From assembly GCA_028278305.1 (NCBI GenBank), contig JANQEP010000030.1, positions 1 to 35,367 of the forward strand: a stretch of 35,367 nucleotides of DNA. The letters are read 5' to 3'. Position 1 is the stretch's first letter. Every line of letters starts with the position of its first letter. Origin of the DNA: Candidatus Gastranaerophilales bacterium (GTDB taxonomy: Bacteria; Cyanobacteriota; Vampirovibrionia; Gastranaerophilales; UBA9971). Position numbers and translations under genes: made by a program. A model generated the notes under the pieces. That model saw only the letters and a program-made list of their open reading frames with translations, did no database searches and was not told where the DNA came from. Shown here in pieces: positions 13,304-35,142 of the stretch.

Positions 13304-13380
13304 TAAGTAGGCAGCAATAAATTTTTATTTCTTATTTTGAAAATTTTATTAAACATACAAAATTTTTTGTTCACTACTTA
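13304..13380 (+). repeat. 77-bp interspersed repeat, copy 1 (terminal inverted repeats)
   Basis: A 77-bp element begins TAAGTAGGCAGCAA and ends TTGTTCACTACTTA, so its ends are imperfect inverted repeats (TAAGTAG/CTACTTA). A second copy lies in reverse orientation at 35066-35142 with only four differences, all transitions. It stops 34 nt before the start of an orphan ABC permease. The size and termini suit a MITE or a conserved promoter element. Confidence 0.8.
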
Positions 13381-13414
13381 AAAAAGTCCAGAAATTTTAT
13401 CAAGGAATAAGTTT

Positions 13415-14300: not shown

Positions 14301-14351
14301 ATAAAACTTACGGCATGGCATTTTTGGGAAGTTTTAATCTGCTATGTCTAA
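14301..14351 (+). pseudogene. Possible 5' stub of a second permease gene
   Basis: Directly after the permease stop there is AAGGAGCAAGCA and then a short frame reading IKLTAWHFWEVLICYV before a stop. It begins with ATA where ATG is expected. The placement and the Lys/Trp-plus-hydrophobic pattern recall the N-terminus of MalG-type permeases, the usual next gene. It is only 16 codons, so this is tentative. It runs into the 3' end of the minus-strand small ORF of island 1. Confidence 0.25.
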
Positions 14352-14540
14352 AATTTCCATGCTCTCCTCGATTTTTTCAGATATTTTTGAGTTTCTCTTT
14401 TGTACCATTTCAAGCAACATATGGCATTGAGCAGAACAAGCCTGTGCATTTAATATTAAACTATCTAAAATAGCCCTGTTTTCATAGCACTTACCTGATG
14501 CTGTTTTATGAATTTTTTCCAGCTTTTTCTTTTCACTCAT
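14334..14540 (-). CDS. Small helical protein, divergent partner of HTH genes (island 1)
   Basis: Unrecognised 68-residue protein with a Lys-rich start (MSEKKKLEKIHKTASGK), three cysteines in the middle and an acidic helical C-terminus (EKIEESMEILDIAD). No signal or TM segment. An AAAGGAGC Shine-Dalgarno site precedes the ATG. It is transcribed away from an HTH gene, with a 14-bp palindrome between them. A second copy of only its first 18 or so codons lies at 15073-15138. By analogy with lambda-like switches or toxin-antitoxin pairs it could be the partner regulated by the HTH protein; this is inference. Confidence 0.7.
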   Translation of the reverse strand: MSEKKKLEKIHKTASGKCYENRAILDSLILNAQACSAQCHMLLEMVQKRNSKISEKIEESMEILDIAD

Positions 14541-14595
14541 TTTCTTGCTCCTTTAAAAATTATTACACTTATTAAAATCTATATGGTTAATAATG

Positions 14596-14609
14596 TACTC
14601 TATAGAGTA
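14596..14609. promoter_or_regulatory. 14-bp perfect palindrome, probable operator (island 1)
   Basis: TACTCTATAGAGTA is fully self-complementary. It sits between the divergent 68-residue ORF and the first HTH gene, just upstream of the latter's -35-like ATGTCA (14614-14619). This is where a repressor controlling both promoters would bind. Confidence 0.6.
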
Positions 14610-14613
14610 TAAA

Positions 14614-14642
14614 ATGTCAAGAAAAATTTAAAATGTTATTAT
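14614..14642 (+). promoter_or_regulatory. Promoter for a probable leaderless HTH mRNA
   Basis: -35-like ATGTCA (14614-14619), a 17-bp spacer and -10 TATTAT (14637-14642) are followed by 7 nt and the ATG at 14650. Transcription would start at or next to the start codon, and there is no Shine-Dalgarno site. Confidence 0.55.
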
Positions 14643-14649
14643 AAAATTT

Positions 14650-14853
14650 ATGATAAATAATAAACTTTCAGAAATAATGGGCAGAAAAAGAATACGTATT
14701 AGCGAGCTGCAGAGAATGACAGGATTAAGTCGTAATGCAATAACTGGTATTTATTACAATAAAAGAAATGGTATAACCTATGATGTTATGAATAAACTTT
14801 GTAATGCGCTGGAATGTAATGTAGGCGATCTTTTCGAGCATATTCCGGATTAA
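14650..14853 (+). CDS. XRE/Cro-type HTH regulator (island 1, copy 1)
   Basis: Minimal 67-residue helix-turn-helix protein of the XRE/Cro family with nothing beyond the DNA-binding domain. The HTH core is ISELQRMTGLSRNAITGIYYN (about 18-38), and the C-terminal helices end LFEHIPD. It lacks a Shine-Dalgarno site, and a -10 box ends 7 nt upstream, so the mRNA is probably leaderless. It is followed after 11 nt by a paralogue with the same layout, roughly half identical. Both genes end in the same sequence TATTCCGGATTAAAAATTCA, showing tandem duplication. Confidence 0.85.
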   Translation: MINNKLSEIMGRKRIRISELQRMTGLSRNAITGIYYNKRNGITYDVMNKLCNALECNVGDLFEHIPD

Positions 14854-14864
14854 AAATTCACAAT

Positions 14865-15068
14865 ATGATTAAAAATAATTTACCAAGACTAATGGGTGAA
14901 AAAAGGCTTAAATTAATTGATCTGAAAAGACTTTCAGGTCTGAGTGATAATACTATCAGGAGAATTTATTATGATACTGCTGATAGCGTAAGCTATAATG
15001 CTATAAACCAGATTTGTAAGGTACTAGATTGTTCTGTCGGAGAGCTTTTTGAGTATATTCCGGATTAA
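14865..15068 (+). CDS. XRE/Cro-type HTH regulator (island 1, copy 2)
   Basis: 67-residue paralogue of the preceding gene: MIKNNLPRLMGEKRLKLIDL, HTH LKRLSGLSDNTIRRIYYD, tail LDCSVGELFEYIPD. It has neither a Shine-Dalgarno site nor a clear own promoter, so it probably depends on read-through from copy 1. The recognition helix differs from copy 1 (SDNTIRRI against SRNAITGI), so the two may bind different operators after duplication. A 3' fragment of a third member lies beside tRNA-Ser at 34768-34873. Confidence 0.82.
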   Translation: MIKNNLPRLMGEKRLKLIDLKRLSGLSDNTIRRIYYDTADSVSYNAINQICKVLDCSVGELFEYIPD

Positions 15069-15072
15069 AAAT

Positions 15073-15138
15073 TCACAAGAAGTAGCGTTTACCTGATGCT
15101 GTTTTATGAATTTTTGCCAGCTTTTTCTTTTCACTCAT
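15073..15138 (-). pseudogene. 5' remnant of the island-1 small ORF
   Basis: The frame MSEKKKLAKIHKTASGKRYF matches the first 18 codons of the 68-residue gene at 14334-14540 (one substitution up to that point) and keeps its Shine-Dalgarno region (AAGGAGCAAGAAAATG). It then breaks and stops at the 3' end of HTH copy 2. Only the promoter-proximal end of the ORF was kept. It is divergent from the 80-residue HTH-like gene at 15252. Confidence 0.75.
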
Positions 15139-15162
15139 TTTCTTGCTCCTTTTGTTAAGTTT

Positions 15163-15219
15163 TTGCCATATGAATATAATATATAGTTGTAATTGTATAA
15201 CAATATATTATATTGCCAA
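15163..15219. promoter_or_regulatory. Imperfect dyad in the second divergent promoter of island 1
   Basis: Outer TTGCCA/TTGCCAA elements and inner complementary 12-mers (AATATAATATAT and ATATATTATATT) form a broad dyad between the small-ORF remnant and the gene at 15252. This differs from the palindrome at 14596, so the two halves of the island seem to have separate operators. Confidence 0.4.
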
Positions 15220-15251
15220 TAGCTCTTATTAGCTACGTTATAATTTGAATA

Positions 15252-15494
15252 ATGAGTGAAAATGAATATAAATTAAAAATAAAAGAACTTAAAAATTTAA
15301 TAAAATCATTAACTGCTATTAATGGTTTAGATTTGATTAAAGTTAAAAATAAAGTTAATCAAAAATATAACAGAAATGATTCTATTCATAATTTAAGAAG
15401 AAAACTAAACGAAGAGAAGTTACAGGTTTCTGAAATGCTGGAAATATTTGATATTTTAGGATATGAAGTAATTATAAAAGAAAAAAATTACTAA
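15252..15494 (+). CDS. Small HTH-like protein (island 1), related to 33881-34096
   Basis: 80-residue protein. Its C-terminal part (IHNLRRKLNEEKLQVSEMLE then IFDILGYEVIIKEK) aligns with that of the island-3 protein (SNLSLKIKNGTMPFSEVLII then ADILGYKIKFEKE), pointing to one family of phage-like HTH repressors. The N-terminus is Lys-rich and helical. TATAAT at 15239-15244 ends 7 nt before the ATG and there is no Shine-Dalgarno site, so a leaderless mRNA is likely. It is paired here with the truncated ORF copy, whereas its homologue in island 3 faces an intact one. Confidence 0.65.
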   Translation: MSENEYKLKIKELKNLIKSLTAINGLDLIKVKNKVNQKYNRNDSIHNLRRKLNEEKLQVSEMLEIFDILGYEVIIKEKNY

Positions 15495-17560: not shown

Positions 17561-17705
17561 ATATAGTTAAGTTAATTGGTAGTGATCAAATATTAAGGGG
17601 TAGAGAATACTTACTCATTTTAAAATTTTTCAAAAATCCCCACCCATGAATGAGTCTACGCTGCCGCGCCCACCCTCAGAGGTGGTCAAGGGACTTCGTC
17701 CTTTA

Positions 17706-17804
17706 GTTGGGTAGGTTGGGTCAATTTTGTAAATTGACCCAACAGCTTTAAATCCGCATTATTTGACGTTGGGTTAAAAAATAGAATTTTTTAACCCAAC
17801 CTAC
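17706..17804. repeat. MITE-like inverted-repeat element
   Basis: Terminal inverted repeats GTAGGTTGGGTCAA (17711-17724) and its near-complement TTAACCCAACCTAC (17791-17804) match at 13 of 14 positions. Inside are two hairpins: 17715-17743 (13-bp arms, TGT loop) and 17768-17800 (14-bp arms, 5-nt loop). The left end, 22 bases from 17706, recurs at 34550-34571. No transposase is encoded, so it is a non-autonomous repeat or a compound hairpin. Confidence 0.65.
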
Positions 17805-17821
17805 TGCTACTAAATAAACAA

Positions 17822-18073
17822 TTACTCATCAATAACTCTTTCAAGAGCTTCTTCTTTAGAACAGTCATATTCATTGCAATAAATTTCAAGCCATTCGCTT
17901 AATAATTCAACTTCTTTTGCACATAAAATTTCAAAATTCCTCTTTGAATTGCCATCTTCCTAGGAAAGATAGTCTTTGAATATTTTAGCCTGAAATTTAT
18001 CATGTTGAAAAGCTCTTAATTTTAAATTTTTTATATCTTTTTGCATTTCCTTGATAGTTCCTGTTGTATTCAT
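17822..18073 (-). pseudogene. Small ORF of island 2 interrupted by an in-frame TAG
   Basis: From an ATG with a strong AAAAGGAGG Shine-Dalgarno site, the frame reads MNTTGTIKEMQKDIKNLKLR and onwards for 83 codons before TAA, but codon 38 is TAG (17960-17962). The frame remains protein-like after it (NFEILCAKEVELLSEWLEIY), so the stop is recent or read through. No family recognised; helical and acidic at the C-terminus. It is divergent from the HTH gene at 18182, and a 5'-end copy lies at 18421-18464. TAG is used as a normal stop elsewhere (cheA, cheB), so recoding is unlikely. Confidence 0.75.
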
Positions 18074-18181
18074 TCTTACCTCCTTTTTATTATTAATTTT
18101 ATTATTAATGATGAAATAAATCATCTTATAAAGATTATATTCTGTAGAAATAATTTGTCAAAAGAATAAAATAGTATTGTT

Positions 18182-18409
18182 ATGATGATTGATTTAGACG
18201 TACTTCCGAAAGAGTTTGGTAAAAAAATTAAAATAGAAAGAATCAAAAGAGACCTTTCTCAAGAAGATCTTGCAGTGCTAGCTGGTTTACACCGGACAAC
18301 CCTGGGTGGCTTAGAAAACGGTAAAAATATGCCCAATCTGGAGACTATTGCAAGACTTGCGAATGCTTTAAATATGACTTTGCCGGAAATAGTTGATTTG
18401 GATTTTTAA
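18182..18409 (+). CDS. XRE-family HTH regulator (island 2, first)
   Basis: 75-residue Cro/C1-type HTH protein. The core is IKRDLSQEDLAVLAGLHRTT (about 22-41), then LGGLENGKNMPNLETIARLA, a textbook XRE domain, and it ends LPEIVDLDF. There are two consecutive ATGs. TAGTAT at 18172-18177 ends 7 nt before the second (18185), so that may be the true leaderless start. It is divergent from the amber-interrupted ORF. The spacer has a small GATGA/TCATC dyad and direct TTATTATTAA repeats. Confidence 0.87.
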   Translation: MMIDLDVLPKEFGKKIKIERIKRDLSQEDLAVLAGLHRTTLGGLENGKNMPNLETIARLANALNMTLPEIVDLDF

Positions 18410-18420
18410 TTTTCAAAATT

Positions 18421-18464
18421 CCTTTGTCTTTTTGTATTTCTTTAATAATTTCTGTTGTGTTCAT
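18421..18464 (-). pseudogene. 5' remnant of the island-2 small ORF
   Basis: The sequence MNTTEIIKEIQKD with its AAAAGGAGG ribosome-binding region repeats the first 13 codons of the ORF at 17822-18073. It then jumps to a sequence like the middle of that ORF (GGAATTTTGAAA) and runs into the HTH gene end. It is therefore an internally deleted, truncated copy, divergent from the second HTH gene at 18589. Confidence 0.7.
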
Positions 18465-18588
18465 TTTTACCTCCTTTTGATAACTGATATTTGTCATTAG
18501 CTAACAGTTAATATTAATAGCATTTTACAGTATTTTCGTCAAATGACAGTTGGTAGAAAGTCTTAAATAATTACTCATAATTATATTT

Positions 18589-18804
18589 ATGAGCAAAAGA
18601 TTTTTGAAAATTATTGGTAATAATGTAAAGTTCTTGAGGAAAGATAAAAATTTATCTCAAGAAAAACTTGCTGAATTAACAGGCTACAGCAGGAATTATA
18701 TTGGAATGATTGAGCGAGCAGAGGCAAATCCACCTGTTGATACTTTGTGTAAAATAGCAAAAATTTTAAGCGTTAAACCTGAAAGAATATTTATAGTCGA
18801 TTAA
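18589..18804 (+). CDS. XRE-family HTH regulator (island 2, second)
   Basis: 71-residue HTH protein: MSKRFLKIIGNNVKFLRKDK, HTH LSQEKLAELTGYSRNYIGMI, tail LSVKPERIFIVD. It is of a different subfamily from its island neighbour and closest in style to the XRE protein at 33478-33696 (both are nearly all DNA-binding domain). CATAAT at 18576-18581 ends 7 nt before the ATG and no Shine-Dalgarno site is present, so the mRNA is probably leaderless. The spacer holds GTCAAATGAC and AACTG/CAGTT dyads that could be operators. Confidence 0.87.
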   Translation: MSKRFLKIIGNNVKFLRKDKNLSQEKLAELTGYSRNYIGMIERAEANPPVDTLCKIAKILSVKPERIFIVD

Positions 18805-29513: not shown

Positions 29514-29780
29514 ATAATTTTAGCTCAATATAAAATTTTCTACCAATCTCAAAAACTCCCAGGGTAATTCAGTTCTAGTTTTAAACTAATAATGTCATGC
29601 CTGACCCGGTTAACTTGACAAGCAAGTCCTTCGGCTAATATGTCGAAGGGTTTTTCATAGGTATAGCTTACTTTTCCGCCCTGTAATAAAAAGTTCGATC
29701 CCAGGTTATTTAAATATTATTTTTTGCTGCGTATTCCTGGTTTAACCTGGGCAGGGATAAAATAACCTTCCCGCTCCTGC
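29514..29780. other. Intergenic region, remnants of repeats
   Basis: No gene seen. It contains GTCATGCCTGACCCGGTTAA and CTTCGGCTAATATGTCGAAG segments resembling dispersed repeats, and a wide dyad of CCCAGGTTA (29700) and TAACCTGGG (29743). Confidence 0.4.
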
Positions 29781-29822
29781 TCTTTGCTCGATACTCTTGC
29801 GTATATTACGGCTTTTTTCATT
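29781..29822 (-). repeat. 42-bp direct repeat, copy 1
   Basis: Identical to 30199-30240 except for one base (CTTGCGTAT against CTTGAGTAT). It begins TCTTTGCTCGATACTCTTG and ends CGGCTTTTTTCATT. On the minus strand it starts at the stop codon of the coiled-coil ORF, so it is its 3' flank. Confidence 0.85.
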
Positions 29823-30183
29823 GCTTCATTGCTTTTAAATCAACAATATCTGCATAATTGCTTGCTGTTAAGCGCTCTACTGTTGTCATGTCCTTGCGTA
29901 GTGTTTTGACTTCGGTTTTGATAGATCCCTGTCCTTTTTTGAGCTCGTCAAGGCAGTCATCAATCGCATTAAAACGTTCGTCCTGAACTTCCCTAAGAAG
30001 CTTTATTTCTTCTCTTGTATTTTTGAATTCTTCCAGGGTTGTTTTTTTAAATTCATGTTGCTCTTCCTTGAGTCCATTAATATCGTCTTTGATACTTTTT
30101 AATTCTTCTGTTACTGATTTTTGAAATTCACTGTTTTTTTTAAGTTCTTCCAGTACTGATTTTTGAAATTCCTGATTATCCAT
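29818..30183 (-). CDS. Coiled-coil small protein
   Basis: 121-residue protein made almost entirely of charged heptad-like repeats. The first 25 residues contain two copies of an EFQKSVxEELK unit (NQEFQKSVLEELKKN and SEFQKSVTEELKSI), followed by KEEQHEFKKTTLEEFKNTRE and a C-terminal helix EVKTLRKDMTTVERLTASNY. No TM segment or signal. Such proteins occur near phage and mobile genes and as tail-like or structural helpers, but no function can be assigned. It is flanked by the 42-bp direct repeats, and a Shine-Dalgarno-like GGGAGAA precedes the ATG. Confidence 0.7.
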   Translation of the reverse strand: MDNQEFQKSVLEELKKNSEFQKSVTEELKSIKDDINGLKEEQHEFKKTTLEEFKNTREEIKLLREVQDERFNAIDDCLDELKKGQGSIKTEVKTLRKDMTTVERLTASNYADIVDLKAMKQ

Positions 30184-30198
30184 GATTATTCTCCCTGT

Positions 30199-30240
30199 TC
30201 TTTGCTCGATACTCTTGAGTATATTACGGCTTTTTTCATT
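30199..30240 (-). repeat. 42-bp direct repeat, copy 2
   Basis: Second copy of the repeat at 29781-29822, 418 bp away. It contains the hairpin ATACTC-TT-GAGTAT (weakened in copy 1). It overlaps the 3' end of a hydrophobic reading frame, just as copy 1 overlaps the 3' end of the coiled-coil ORF. Confidence 0.85.
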
Positions 30241-30382
30241 TTTTAATAAATTTATTGTAAATTTTTTTAAACATTGCTATAAGTGGTTTTTTGAAAATAA
30301 ATAGTAAGAACAGGGGGAATAATCCTGTAAACAAAGAAATTATGCCGATTATTCCATAGGCAACAATTTTTATTGCTATTGG
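30236..30382 (-). pseudogene. Hydrophobic small frame without clear start (gene remnant)
   Basis: The minus-strand frame reads IAIKIVAYGIIGIISLFTGL, then FPLFLLFIFKKPLIAMFKKI and YNKFIKK before TGA. There are one or two TM segments and a basic tail, but no ATG or Shine-Dalgarno site at its left edge, where a TAG closes the frame. Probably the 3' part of a small membrane-protein gene. Its stop codon lies in repeat copy 2. Confidence 0.4.
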
Positions 30383-33477: not shown

Positions 33478-33696
33478 TTAATCTTGCCTTTGCAGCATTT
33501 CATCTATAGATTTATTGAAAACTTTAGATATTTCATAAGCATTAACTAATGAGAGGTTATGTTTTGCATTTTCTATATTACTCATATATGGAACACTAAA
33601 ACCTGTTAACCCGGCAAGTTCTTGCTGTGAAAGAGACTTTTTTATTCTTTCAATTTTTACATTATGAGCAAATATTTTTAAAATATCATCATTCAT
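33478..33696 (-). CDS. XRE-family HTH regulator (island 3, distal)
   Basis: 72-residue Cro/C1-type HTH protein: NVKIERIKKSLSQQELAGLT, then GFSVPYMSNIENAKHNLSLV and tail FNKSIDEMLQRQD. TATAAT (33704-33709, minus) ends 7 nt before the ATG and no Shine-Dalgarno site is seen, so a leaderless mRNA is likely. It is divergent from the short remnant at 33782, with a 14-bp dyad between them. The third island has the same plan as island 2, in reverse orientation. Confidence 0.87.
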   Translation of the reverse strand: MNDDILKIFAHNVKIERIKKSLSQQELAGLTGFSVPYMSNIENAKHNLSLVNAYEISKVFNKSIDEMLQRQD

Positions 33697-33753
33697 AGCT
33701 TATATTATATAAACTTGACTTTATTTATTCCATAAATTATAATATTTTTAAAA

Positions 33754-33767
33754 TAAACTACAGTTTA
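33754..33767. promoter_or_regulatory. Palindrome in the island-3 divergent promoter
   Basis: Arms TAAACT and AGTTTA flank AC. It lies between the distal HTH gene and the small-ORF remnant, where a repressor would control both. TAAACT/AGTTT half-sites also occur in the second promoter of this island (34151-34173). Confidence 0.5.
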
Positions 33768-33781
33768 TGACAAAGGTAAAA

Positions 33782-33877
33782 ATGAAAGAATTTAAAAATT
33801 ATATCTTTACAGAAAAAGAATTCAAGAAAATAGAAAAACCGACTGACAAATTTATTAGGATTTATCAGGAAGTTTGA
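33782..33877 (+). pseudogene. 5' remnant of the island-3 small ORF
   Basis: 31-codon frame MKEFKNYIFTEKEFKKIEKP then TDKFIRIYQEV, preceded by AAAGGT. Its first 24 or so residues align with the intact ORF at 34239 (IYSFEKKEFRRIEKLADEI), then it diverges and stops. As in islands 1 and 2, only the start of the gene is duplicated, beside another HTH gene. Confidence 0.65.
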
Positions 33878-33880
33878 GAA

Positions 33881-34096
33881 TTATTCTTTTTCAAATTTTA
33901 TTTTATAACCCAGAATATCTGCAATAATAAGTACTTCACTAAATGGCATAGTGCCATTTTTTATTTTAAGTGAAAGATTAGACGGTAAATAGTTTTTTCC
34001 CAGTCTTTTACCAAGCTCAATAGCCAAGTCTTTTTGCATTACTTTTTCTTTAACAAGCAAAATTTTTATTTGCTCTGTTACTCTTTCTCTAGTCAT
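33881..34096 (-). CDS. Phage-repressor-like HTH protein (island 3), homologue of 15252-15494
   Basis: 71-residue protein with RVTEQIKILLVKEKVMQKDL, SNLSLKIKNGTMPFSEVLII and ADILGYKIKFEKE. The C-terminal ILGYxIxxEK block and the preceding NLxxKI segment are shared with the 80-residue gene of island 1. Its promoter is clear: TTGTCA (34126-34131) and TAAAAT (34103-34108), both minus strand, with a 17-bp spacer. The -10 box ends 6 nt before the ATG and there is no Shine-Dalgarno site, so the mRNA should be leaderless. It is divergent from the intact small ORF at 34239. Confidence 0.75.
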   Translation of the reverse strand: MTRERVTEQIKILLVKEKVMQKDLAIELGKRLGKNYLPSNLSLKIKNGTMPFSEVLIIADILGYKIKFEKE

Positions 34097-34102
34097 ATGA
34101 GT

Positions 34103-34131
34103 ATTTTATATTTAATTTAATCTATTGACAA
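34103..34131 (-). promoter_or_regulatory. Promoter of the island-3 HTH gene
   Basis: -35 TTGTCA, 17-bp spacer and -10 TAAAAT on the minus strand, ending 6 nt before the start codon of 33881-34096. This is the best-matching promoter among the islands and supports leaderless expression. Confidence 0.65.
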
Positions 34132-34150
34132 TTAAATGTAATTAAGCTAT

Positions 34151-34173
34151 ATTTAGTTTTAATTAAACTAAAT
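34151..34173. promoter_or_regulatory. Operator-like dyad before the island-3 small ORF
   Basis: Arms ATTTAGTTT and AAACTAAAT flank TAATT. A partial repeat, TTAGTTTAATTAAA, follows at about 34198, giving two related sites between the divergent genes. Confidence 0.5.
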
Positions 34174-34238
34174 TAATATATTTTTATAATTATTAAATTA
34201 GTTTAATTAAATTTACATTTTTAACAATAGGAGCAAAA

Positions 34239-34451
34239 ATGGAAAAAAATAAAATTTATAGTTTTGAGAAAAAGGAATTTAGGCGAATAGAAAAATTGGC
34301 TGATGAAATTTATAATACAGCTATAGTCATAAAAGTATTTTGTGAGAATGACAAATATAGTGAGCACTTGCAGAATATTTTACCGGTAATTAAATTTTTG
34401 CATCAAAACTCTGATACTTTGAATTCTATTTTTATAAATTATGAAAAATAA
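34239..34451 (+). CDS. Small helical protein, divergent partner of HTH genes (island 3)
   Basis: Unrecognised 70-residue protein (MEKNKIYSFEKKEFRRIEKL start), predicted helical and mixed-charge, with one Cys and no TM segment. ATAGGAGCA provides a good Shine-Dalgarno site, in contrast with the leaderless HTH genes. It is divergent from the HTH gene at 33881; a truncated copy of its 5' end is at 33782. It has no clear sequence similarity to the small ORFs of the other islands, only the same size and position. Confidence 0.7.
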   Translation: MEKNKIYSFEKKEFRRIEKLADEIYNTAIVIKVFCENDKYSEHLQNILPVIKFLHQNSDTLNSIFINYEK

Positions 34452-34525: not shown

Positions 34526-34571
34526 TATAAGCTGGAAAGCTTAAAAAAAGTTGGGTAGGTTGGGTCAATTT
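34526..34571 (+). repeat. Composite of two repeats that flank island 2
   Basis: The first 25 bases (starting TATAAGCTGGAAAGCTT) are identical to 18875-18899, right of island 2. The last 22 (starting GTTGGGTAGGTTGGG) are identical to 17706-17727, left of island 2; they share one base at the joint. Here the two are fused directly, 75 nt after the island-3 small ORF. Confidence 0.8.
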
Positions 34572-34646
34572 ACAAAAAAGAGCAAATTTTTATATATTTT
34601 TGTTTTTATATAAATATAACTCTTTAAGATAACCGGGGAAATGTAA

Positions 34647-34781
34647 TGTCTAGTATTTTTAGCAATTCCTGTAGTTCTTATTAAACCTAATGATGTAATG
34701 GGTTTATTATCAAACAGGGATCCTAAATTTTTAAGTGATTTGGCAAGTAAAGACGGAAATCTAGTGATTAATCGGGAATAA
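34647..34781 (+). pseudogene. Unidentified 44-codon frame, probable 3' gene fragment
   Basis: After an in-frame TAA the frame reads CLVFLAIPVVLIKPNDVMGL, then LSNRDPKFLSDLASKDGNLV and INRE before TAA. There is no start at its left edge, though an internal ATG at 34698 would give a 27-residue peptide. The composition looks protein-like, but I recognise no family. It ends overlapping the HTH fragment on the other strand. Confidence 0.3.
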
Positions 34782-34873
34782 ACTCAAAAATATCATCAAT
34801 TTTACACTCCAAAAAATTGCATAAAGAATTTAAAGTTCTAAGTTTAATTGCATCTACCCTTATTATAATAAAT
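34768..34873 (-). pseudogene. 3' fragment of an XRE/HTH gene next to tRNA-Ser
   Basis: The minus-strand frame reads DAIKLRTLNSLCNFLECKID then DIFEFIPD and stop. It matches the C-termini of the island-1 HTH proteins (NKLCNALECNVGDLFEHIPD and NQICKVLDCSVGELFEYIPD). The HTH part is missing: the frame meets the 3' end of tRNA-Ser 2 nt away. A deletion or integration event at the tRNA end would explain the break. Confidence 0.7.
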
Positions 34874-34874
34874 C

Positions 34875-34961
34875 CGGAGAGGGTGGGATTCGAACCCACG
34901 ATGCAGTTGCCCACATAACACCTTAGCAGGGTGCCGCCTTCAGCCGCTCGGCCACCTCTCC
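34875..34961 (-). tRNA. tRNA-Ser (anticodon GCT)
   Basis: 87-nt class II tRNA. Acceptor stem GGAGAGG/CCTCTCC with discriminator G, D arm with GCCGAGCGGCTGAAGGC, anticodon arm CACC-CTGCTAA-GGTG with GCT in the loop, a long variable arm and the T arm GGGTTCGAATCCC. It reads AGC/AGU. CCA is not encoded. The 3' end abuts a truncated HTH gene, and a 77-bp repeat lies about 105 nt upstream. Confidence 0.97.
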
Positions 34962-35065
34962 TTATTTTTACTGAAATTTAATTTCACAAAATCAAATAAA
35001 GTTTATCACAAAGAAAATTCATCAGACAAGAAACAAAATTAAACCGGTAAAGATTAATTTTTATT
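34962..35065. other. AT-rich leader of tRNA-Ser, no gene seen
   Basis: AT-rich spacer between the tRNA and the 77-bp repeat. It should hold the tRNA promoter on the minus strand, but no well-matched -35/-10 pair was identified. Confidence 0.4.
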
Positions 35066-35142
35066 TAAGTAGTAAACAAAAAATTTTGTATGTTTAATAA
35101 AATTTTCAAAATAAGAAGTAAAAATTTATTGTTACCTACTTA
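35066..35142 (-). repeat. 77-bp interspersed repeat, copy 2
   Basis: Reverse-oriented copy of 13304-13380, differing at four positions. Its ends TAAGTAGTAAACAA and TTGTTACCTACTTA are imperfect inverted repeats. Relative to its orientation it lies upstream of tRNA-Ser, as copy 1 lies upstream of the orphan permease. Confidence 0.8.

Follow-up and report, generated by a model that had tools for sequence, protein, structure and literature searches.

The question raised by this locus is why the beginning of a small open reading frame (ORF), complete with its ribosome binding site (RBS), should be present a second time behind a tandem pair of helix-turn-helix (HTH) genes. The window, i.e. the whole 35,367-nt stretch analysed, is contig C85 of a 2.17-Mb, 160-contig metagenome-assembled genome (MAG) of Candidatus Gastranaerophilales, termed G000. 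It contains three islands of this kind, flanked by ABC permease, malQ, cheY and secA genes. For island 1 (14334-15494) an earlier note had described a 68-residue ORF, a palindromic spacer, tandem HTH genes, an 18-codon stub of the ORF and an unrelated HTH gene. This plan is confirmed, and all of its parts were located:

14334-14540, minus strand: intact partner ORF68 (family A, 68 aa), a predicted helical hairpin; 97.6% nucleotide identity to the partner on contig C2 of G000
14541-14554, minus strand: RBS/leader of the intact family A partner, AAAGGAGCAAGAAA
14596-14609, no strand: 14-nt palindrome TACTCTATAGAGTA in the spacer, a candidate operator (p = 0.15 against shuffles, not individually significant)
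14650-14853, plus strand: HTH_26 (PF13443) repressor-like gene 1, without a Shine-Dalgarno sequence
14865-15068, plus strand: HTH_26 (PF13443) repressor-like gene 2, tandem paralogue
15083-15152, minus strand: stub of 70 nt, family A RBS and first 18 codons; 96% identical to 14485-14554 (E = 1.5e-26)
15252-15494, plus strand: DUF6471-like HTH gene (80 aa), putatively displaced; clade-mate of the stub-adjacent HTHs in genomes G001 and G004

The RBS in front of ORF68 is AAAGGAGCAAG, and the two HTH_26 genes have 67% nucleotide identity. The repeat begins at the RBS and ends after codon 18, and the stub reads MSEKKKLAKIHKTASGKRYFL and then a stop. The likeness (96% over 70 nt) is thus not limited to the RBS region, as the earlier note had allowed it might be. 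Ahead of the RBS the likeness of the spacers drops to that of shuffled sequences (56% vs 54%). The 80-aa HTH has a relative in island 3, the DUF6471-like HTH there.

These parts belong to a widespread unit. The survey comprised loci retrieved by HTH and partner searches in G000 and its relatives, of which G001 and G002 belong to the same genus, G004 to the same family and G013 to the same order; all these assemblies are fragmented and at least some are MAGs, whose contigs may be chimeric at repeats like these arrays. It yielded 53 HTH units, of three HTH types, with a divergent partner-like ORF and RBS, in a list made automatically in which a few ORFs may not belong. The spacers are mostly 65-160 bp long, often about 110 bp, and are enriched in palindromes (11 of 46 at p ≤ 0.05) that vary between units, as expected for individual operators. 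A Shine-Dalgarno core precedes only 5 of 46 HTH genes, so that most are probably leaderless. We infer that the small HTH protein binds a candidate operator in the spacer, from which it probably represses in both directions.

None of the partners tested, which are small ORFs, matched any Pfam, NCBIfam or PADLOC family, and searches of Pfam, PHROGs, NCBIfam, PADLOC and PDB folds gave nothing specific as to function. The family A partner was modelled as a two-helix hairpin (pLDDT 91), charged rather than a hydrophobic peptide; it has no specific structural match, such hairpins matching many unrelated structures. In named genomes its relatives occur only in Candidatus Gastranaerophilales MAGs, and a literature search combining Gastranaerophilales with helix-turn-helix found no paper. 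Within this uncultured order the two-gene system is abundant, and several of its partner families lack a curated profile.

In the lambda-type immunity region a divergent leaderless repressor and an RBS-bearing partner are arranged around an operator. The same divergent layout is found here with a candidate operator, and the HTH_3 proteins match phage repressor profiles, so the islands might be remnants of phage immunity regions (a repressor with a Cro-like or lytic gene), as the earlier note had suggested. Yet no phage genes were seen beside the islands, which lie among the chromosomal genes named above, and there is no Cro-like partner; the units are dispersed, chromosomal and multicopy. Families A, B and G were found in no IMG/VR contig and family A in no INPHARED phage, while the HTH_26 protein tested is only 33-42% like phage regulators. 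A phage origin is thus unsupported, and we consider it highly improbable.

The units also resemble type II toxin-antitoxin systems with HTH antitoxins (HigBA, HipBA) in that a small HTH protein is accompanied by a small partner, in many copies per genome, and by analogy autoregulation is plausible. Unlike those systems they are divergent, not operonic (note that they were found and collected as divergent pairs), their partners match no known toxin family, and the HTH can be exchanged between families.

This exchange is seen most clearly where the partner is nearly constant. One partner family is paired with HTH_26, HTH_3 and DUF6471-like genes. G001 has two partner ORFs with 97% nucleotide identity; the spacers in front of them are alike only at shuffle level (54% vs 52%), and one faces an HTH_26 and the other a DUF6471-like gene. 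When island 1 is compared with the single unit on G000:C2, 202 of 207 nt agree in the ORF and 16 of 18 in the RBS, but only 62-63% in the spacer and 65% in the HTH gene. Contigs C142 and C143 of G000 are identical over their first 99 nt, which hold the start of a family B partner; beyond that point each has a spacer and HTH gene of its own, and the same fork exists in G001. The overlap shows that a segment is shared and does not give its true length, because an assembler's k-mer would also leave an exact 99-nt overlap. Near-identical partners with unrelated spacers and HTH families thus indicate, from sequence comparison, that regulators are swapped, with the border close to the RBS of the partner, and bear out the cassette exchange that the earlier note had proposed as one possibility. 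They provide a natural series of regulator swaps before one gene, the spacer moving with its repressor. In horizontal regulatory transfer the same gene gains a non-homologous upstream region via recombination (PMC5890482), and the G001 pair conforms to this, with ORFs 97% identical and spacers at shuffle level. It differs in that the replaced segment includes the regulator gene, and older regulators accumulate alongside.

Islands 2 (17825-18804) and 3 were said to share the plan of island 1. Their features are:

17825-18073, minus strand: island 2 partner (family G), 83 codons including a single in-frame TAG
18182-18409, plus strand: island 2 HTH_3 gene, in a unit related to G013:C126
18405-18413, no strand: island 2 junction, TTTTTAATT, where the G013-like part and the G001-like part overlap by 9 nt
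18411-18480, minus strand: island 2 stub, family G, start codon at 18464, about 20 codons; 83% like the local partner
18589-18804, plus strand: island 2 HTH_3 gene, putatively displaced; its relative in G001:C354 has an intact partner
33478-33696, minus strand: island 3 HTH_3 gene, putatively displaced; its relative in G002:C269 has an intact partner
33767-33855, plus strand: island 3 stub, family C, start codon at 33782, about 24 codons; 69% like the intact ORF
33881-34096, minus strand: island 3 DUF6471-like HTH gene, paired with the intact partner
34239-34451, plus strand: island 3 intact partner, family C, 70 aa

The layout holds, island 3 (33478-34451) being a mirrored version of it. The likeness does not extend to all details: the supposedly intact ORF of island 2 is full length except for the single TAG (the matching codon in G001 is TGG), and the stubs are only 83% and 69% like their local partners. 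Each of these islands adds together two arrangements that occur singly in other genomes. In island 2, 17822-18413 matches G013:C126 (77%) and 18405-18793 matches G001:C354 (83.5%), the latter part comprising a partner 5′ end, spacer and HTH gene; the 9-nt overlap of the two matches falls at the HTH stop codon. Island 3 combines a G001:C107-like unit with a G002:C269-like unit. Because their positions are not syntenic, these single-unit relatives represent component arrangements and not the state of this locus before insertion.

Some other sequences of note lie around these islands. A dispersed repeat TTGGGTCAATTTTGTAAATTGACCCAAC is present at 17705-17811 and 34549-34586 of the window, and the stretch 17744-17825 also matches several retrieved HTH-unit loci. 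A 3′ fragment of an HTH_26 gene (34768-34872) lies directly behind tRNA-Ser(gct) (34875-34961), with intact close relatives on G000:C142 and C143.

The intact-plus-stub arrangement is not confined to the window. Twenty-one tandem HTH genes lack an intact partner; nine of them bear a partner 5′ stub, as judged by a detection that rests on known partner families, and the remaining 12 have no recognisable stub. This strong enrichment, seen both in G000 and in related genera, upholds the earlier view that the recurrence is not random decay. The break points are variable (about 4 to 26 codons), as the earlier note had foreseen for the case against its proposal, but the enrichment of intact-plus-stub pairs is strong. 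The stubs do keep the 5′ end, though geometry suffices to explain this, since the start of the partner is what adjoins the retained HTH gene in a divergent pair. Eight of the nine stubs are of the family of the local partner, as would follow from homology anchoring in the partner gene, and the one at G002:C247 is of a different family. The stubs start about 0-18 nt past the HTH stop codon and are antisense to the HTH gene.

By identity to the initiation region of the local partner the stubs fall into two classes. Those of island 1, G000:C116, G001:C259 (two), G004:C11 and G000:C135 are 93-100% identical; those of islands 2 and 3 form the lower class. The high-identity class implies that the events were recent or that gene conversion or selection has acted. 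The array of G001 aligns collinearly with that of G004 across 961 bp (65%), and the HTHs on the stub side of both group with that of island 1 in a supported clade. The stubs, however, each match the partner within their own genome. Either this layout came about more than once next to one HTH lineage, or the 5′ ends are undergoing homogenisation.

Several further sequences were noted in the retrieved loci. The motif AAACTCCCTGATAAAAATTGTCAAA occurs at right ends in seven copies in four genomes, mostly beside HTH units; it is not universal and was rejected as a general right-end motif. In locus L104 (G001:C259) a short palindrome-like sequence GTAGGGTGCGCATCCTAC separates the end of the HTH gene from the stub in each of the two stub units (808-825 and 1242-1259), and a similar one is present in L096. 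The latter locus (G000:C135, 1419-2086) is built on the intact-plus-stub plan; its partner is larger, similar to a HAD-type phosphatase, and the full-length copy appears frameshifted.

We propose that the stubs are the footprints of sequential displacement, in which an incoming module anchors in the partner gene and the old HTH gene is kept; we give this a probability of about 0.6. The unit is the divergent module, a mostly leaderless small HTH gene opposite a strong-RBS partner that is small and helical. Another module whose partner is of the same family would enter the locus, joined on one side by homologous recombination within the partner gene and on the other by an illegitimate join just behind the stop codon of the incoming HTH gene. 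The incoming partner would provide the new intact copy, while the resident partner would be cut to its RBS-proximal 5′ end, and the resident HTH gene and spacer would be pushed back and kept under selection as an orphan repressor. The resulting repeats could then permit amplification or loss through unequal crossing-over. In this reading the orphan HTHs would be retained as immunity against incoming modules.

That repressor-like genes are retained with their own spacer while the partner is trimmed, as the earlier note had supposed, is borne out. HTH genes displaced in the window or elsewhere have dN/dS of 0.08-0.31, although dS is near saturation in some pairs and the lineages compared may have undergone displacement only recently; such purifying selection supports functional displaced HTHs and does not date the displacement. 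Among the matches listed, and where contigs allow a view, the malQ, secA and cheY orthologues in sister genomes have no HTH unit beside them. Homologues of comEC (ComEC) and dprA (DprA) are present in all five genomes tested. DNA uptake is therefore possible, but most bacterial control genomes also encode ComEC/DprA.

There is a close parallel in the type VI secretion (T6SS) clusters of Vibrio cholerae, where successive insertions of two-gene modules displace the old effector and keep the immunity gene (Kirchberger et al. 2017, PMC5361080). Homology-facilitated illegitimate recombination has been proposed for those orphan immunity arrays, in which remnants of displaced genes persist (PMC5361080). 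Here too, as in displacement arrays of the T6SS/Rhs type, the old partner is truncated and its cognate gene retained beside the newcomer. By contrast with T6SS arrays, what is kept is an HTH repressor-like gene and what is displaced a divergent small ORF that matches no known family, and it is the 5′ rather than the 3′ end that remains, because the displaced ORF reads divergently. Displacement here would extend this mode of array growth from secretion-toxin immunity genes to tiny repressor modules.

Several points stand against displacement, among them the 12 tandem HTH genes that lack a recognisable stub, the G002:C247 stub of a different family, the possibly recent displacement in the lineages compared for dN/dS, and the chance that MAG contigs are chimeric at these repeats. 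The stubs also abut the HTH stop codon more tightly than random illegitimate joints predict. In the G000:C116 array the HTH gene, the spacer and the start of the partner recur (67.6% over 411 nt), both HTH genes being HTH_26, and plain tandem duplication of an HTH-partner segment, with a break inside the partner and later divergence, fits this array as well. As a general account duplication is unlikely, and for heterogeneous arrays it is already contradicted: neighbouring HTHs are of different families in islands 1 and 3 and in G001:C259, and the spacers are at shuffle level, yet the stubs of island 1 and G001:C259 are 96-100% conserved.

The sharp start of the repeats at the RBS, and their position flanking HTH cassettes, might also suggest site-specific, integron-like cassettes with the partner 5′ end as attachment site. 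An integron requires a fixed recombination point and an integrase, whereas here the break points differ by event, the borders depend on the partner family and the DNA between the repeats encodes no integrase; this is the least probable of the readings weighed.

The tight abutment of the stubs has another potential explanation, i.e. that the stub is a functional antisense element, the 3′ end of the HTH transcript pairing with the RBS and first codons of the partner and so adding repression of translation, in the manner of a type I toxin-antitoxin system. The five high-identity arrays, and the match of each G001 and G004 stub to its own genome's partner, are in its favour. The layout nevertheless follows from the stacking of divergent units, the stubs of islands 2 and 3 have only 83% and 69% likeness to their local partners, and the modelled partner is not a hydrophobic peptide. 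When the 200 nt downstream of each HTH gene were locally aligned with partner initiation regions, with cross-locus controls, only the stub arrays stood out; strong antisense complement was present in few loci, and most HTHs in units with intact partners had no such element. Antisense was rejected as a general rule, and a general role is unlikely. For the 93-100% arrays, whose neighbouring HTH genes are near synonymous saturation between genera (dS about 1.7), we think it distinctly doubtful that the stub is maintained as a 3′-UTR antisense element of the repressor mRNA. If it were, module displacement would have created a dual lock, transcriptional and translational.

Repeated gene 5′ ends were also seen in other contexts. 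In L126 (G002:C140) the 5′ end of an AbrB-type-looking small ORF is repeated (1664-1742 and 2150-2228; 79 nt, 89%), behind an HTH_26 gene and in an in-frame fusion to an HTH_3 gene, and there it is not antisense. In the window two copies (91%) of the apparent first ~18 codons of a serine recombinase, MKKAVIYARVSSKEQ, lie at 29776-29829 and 30194-30247, flanking a 121-aa coiled-coil-like ORF. Lastly, an inverted repeat of 82 nt, 94% complementary, is found at 13304-13385 and 35061-35142, 21.7 kb apart.
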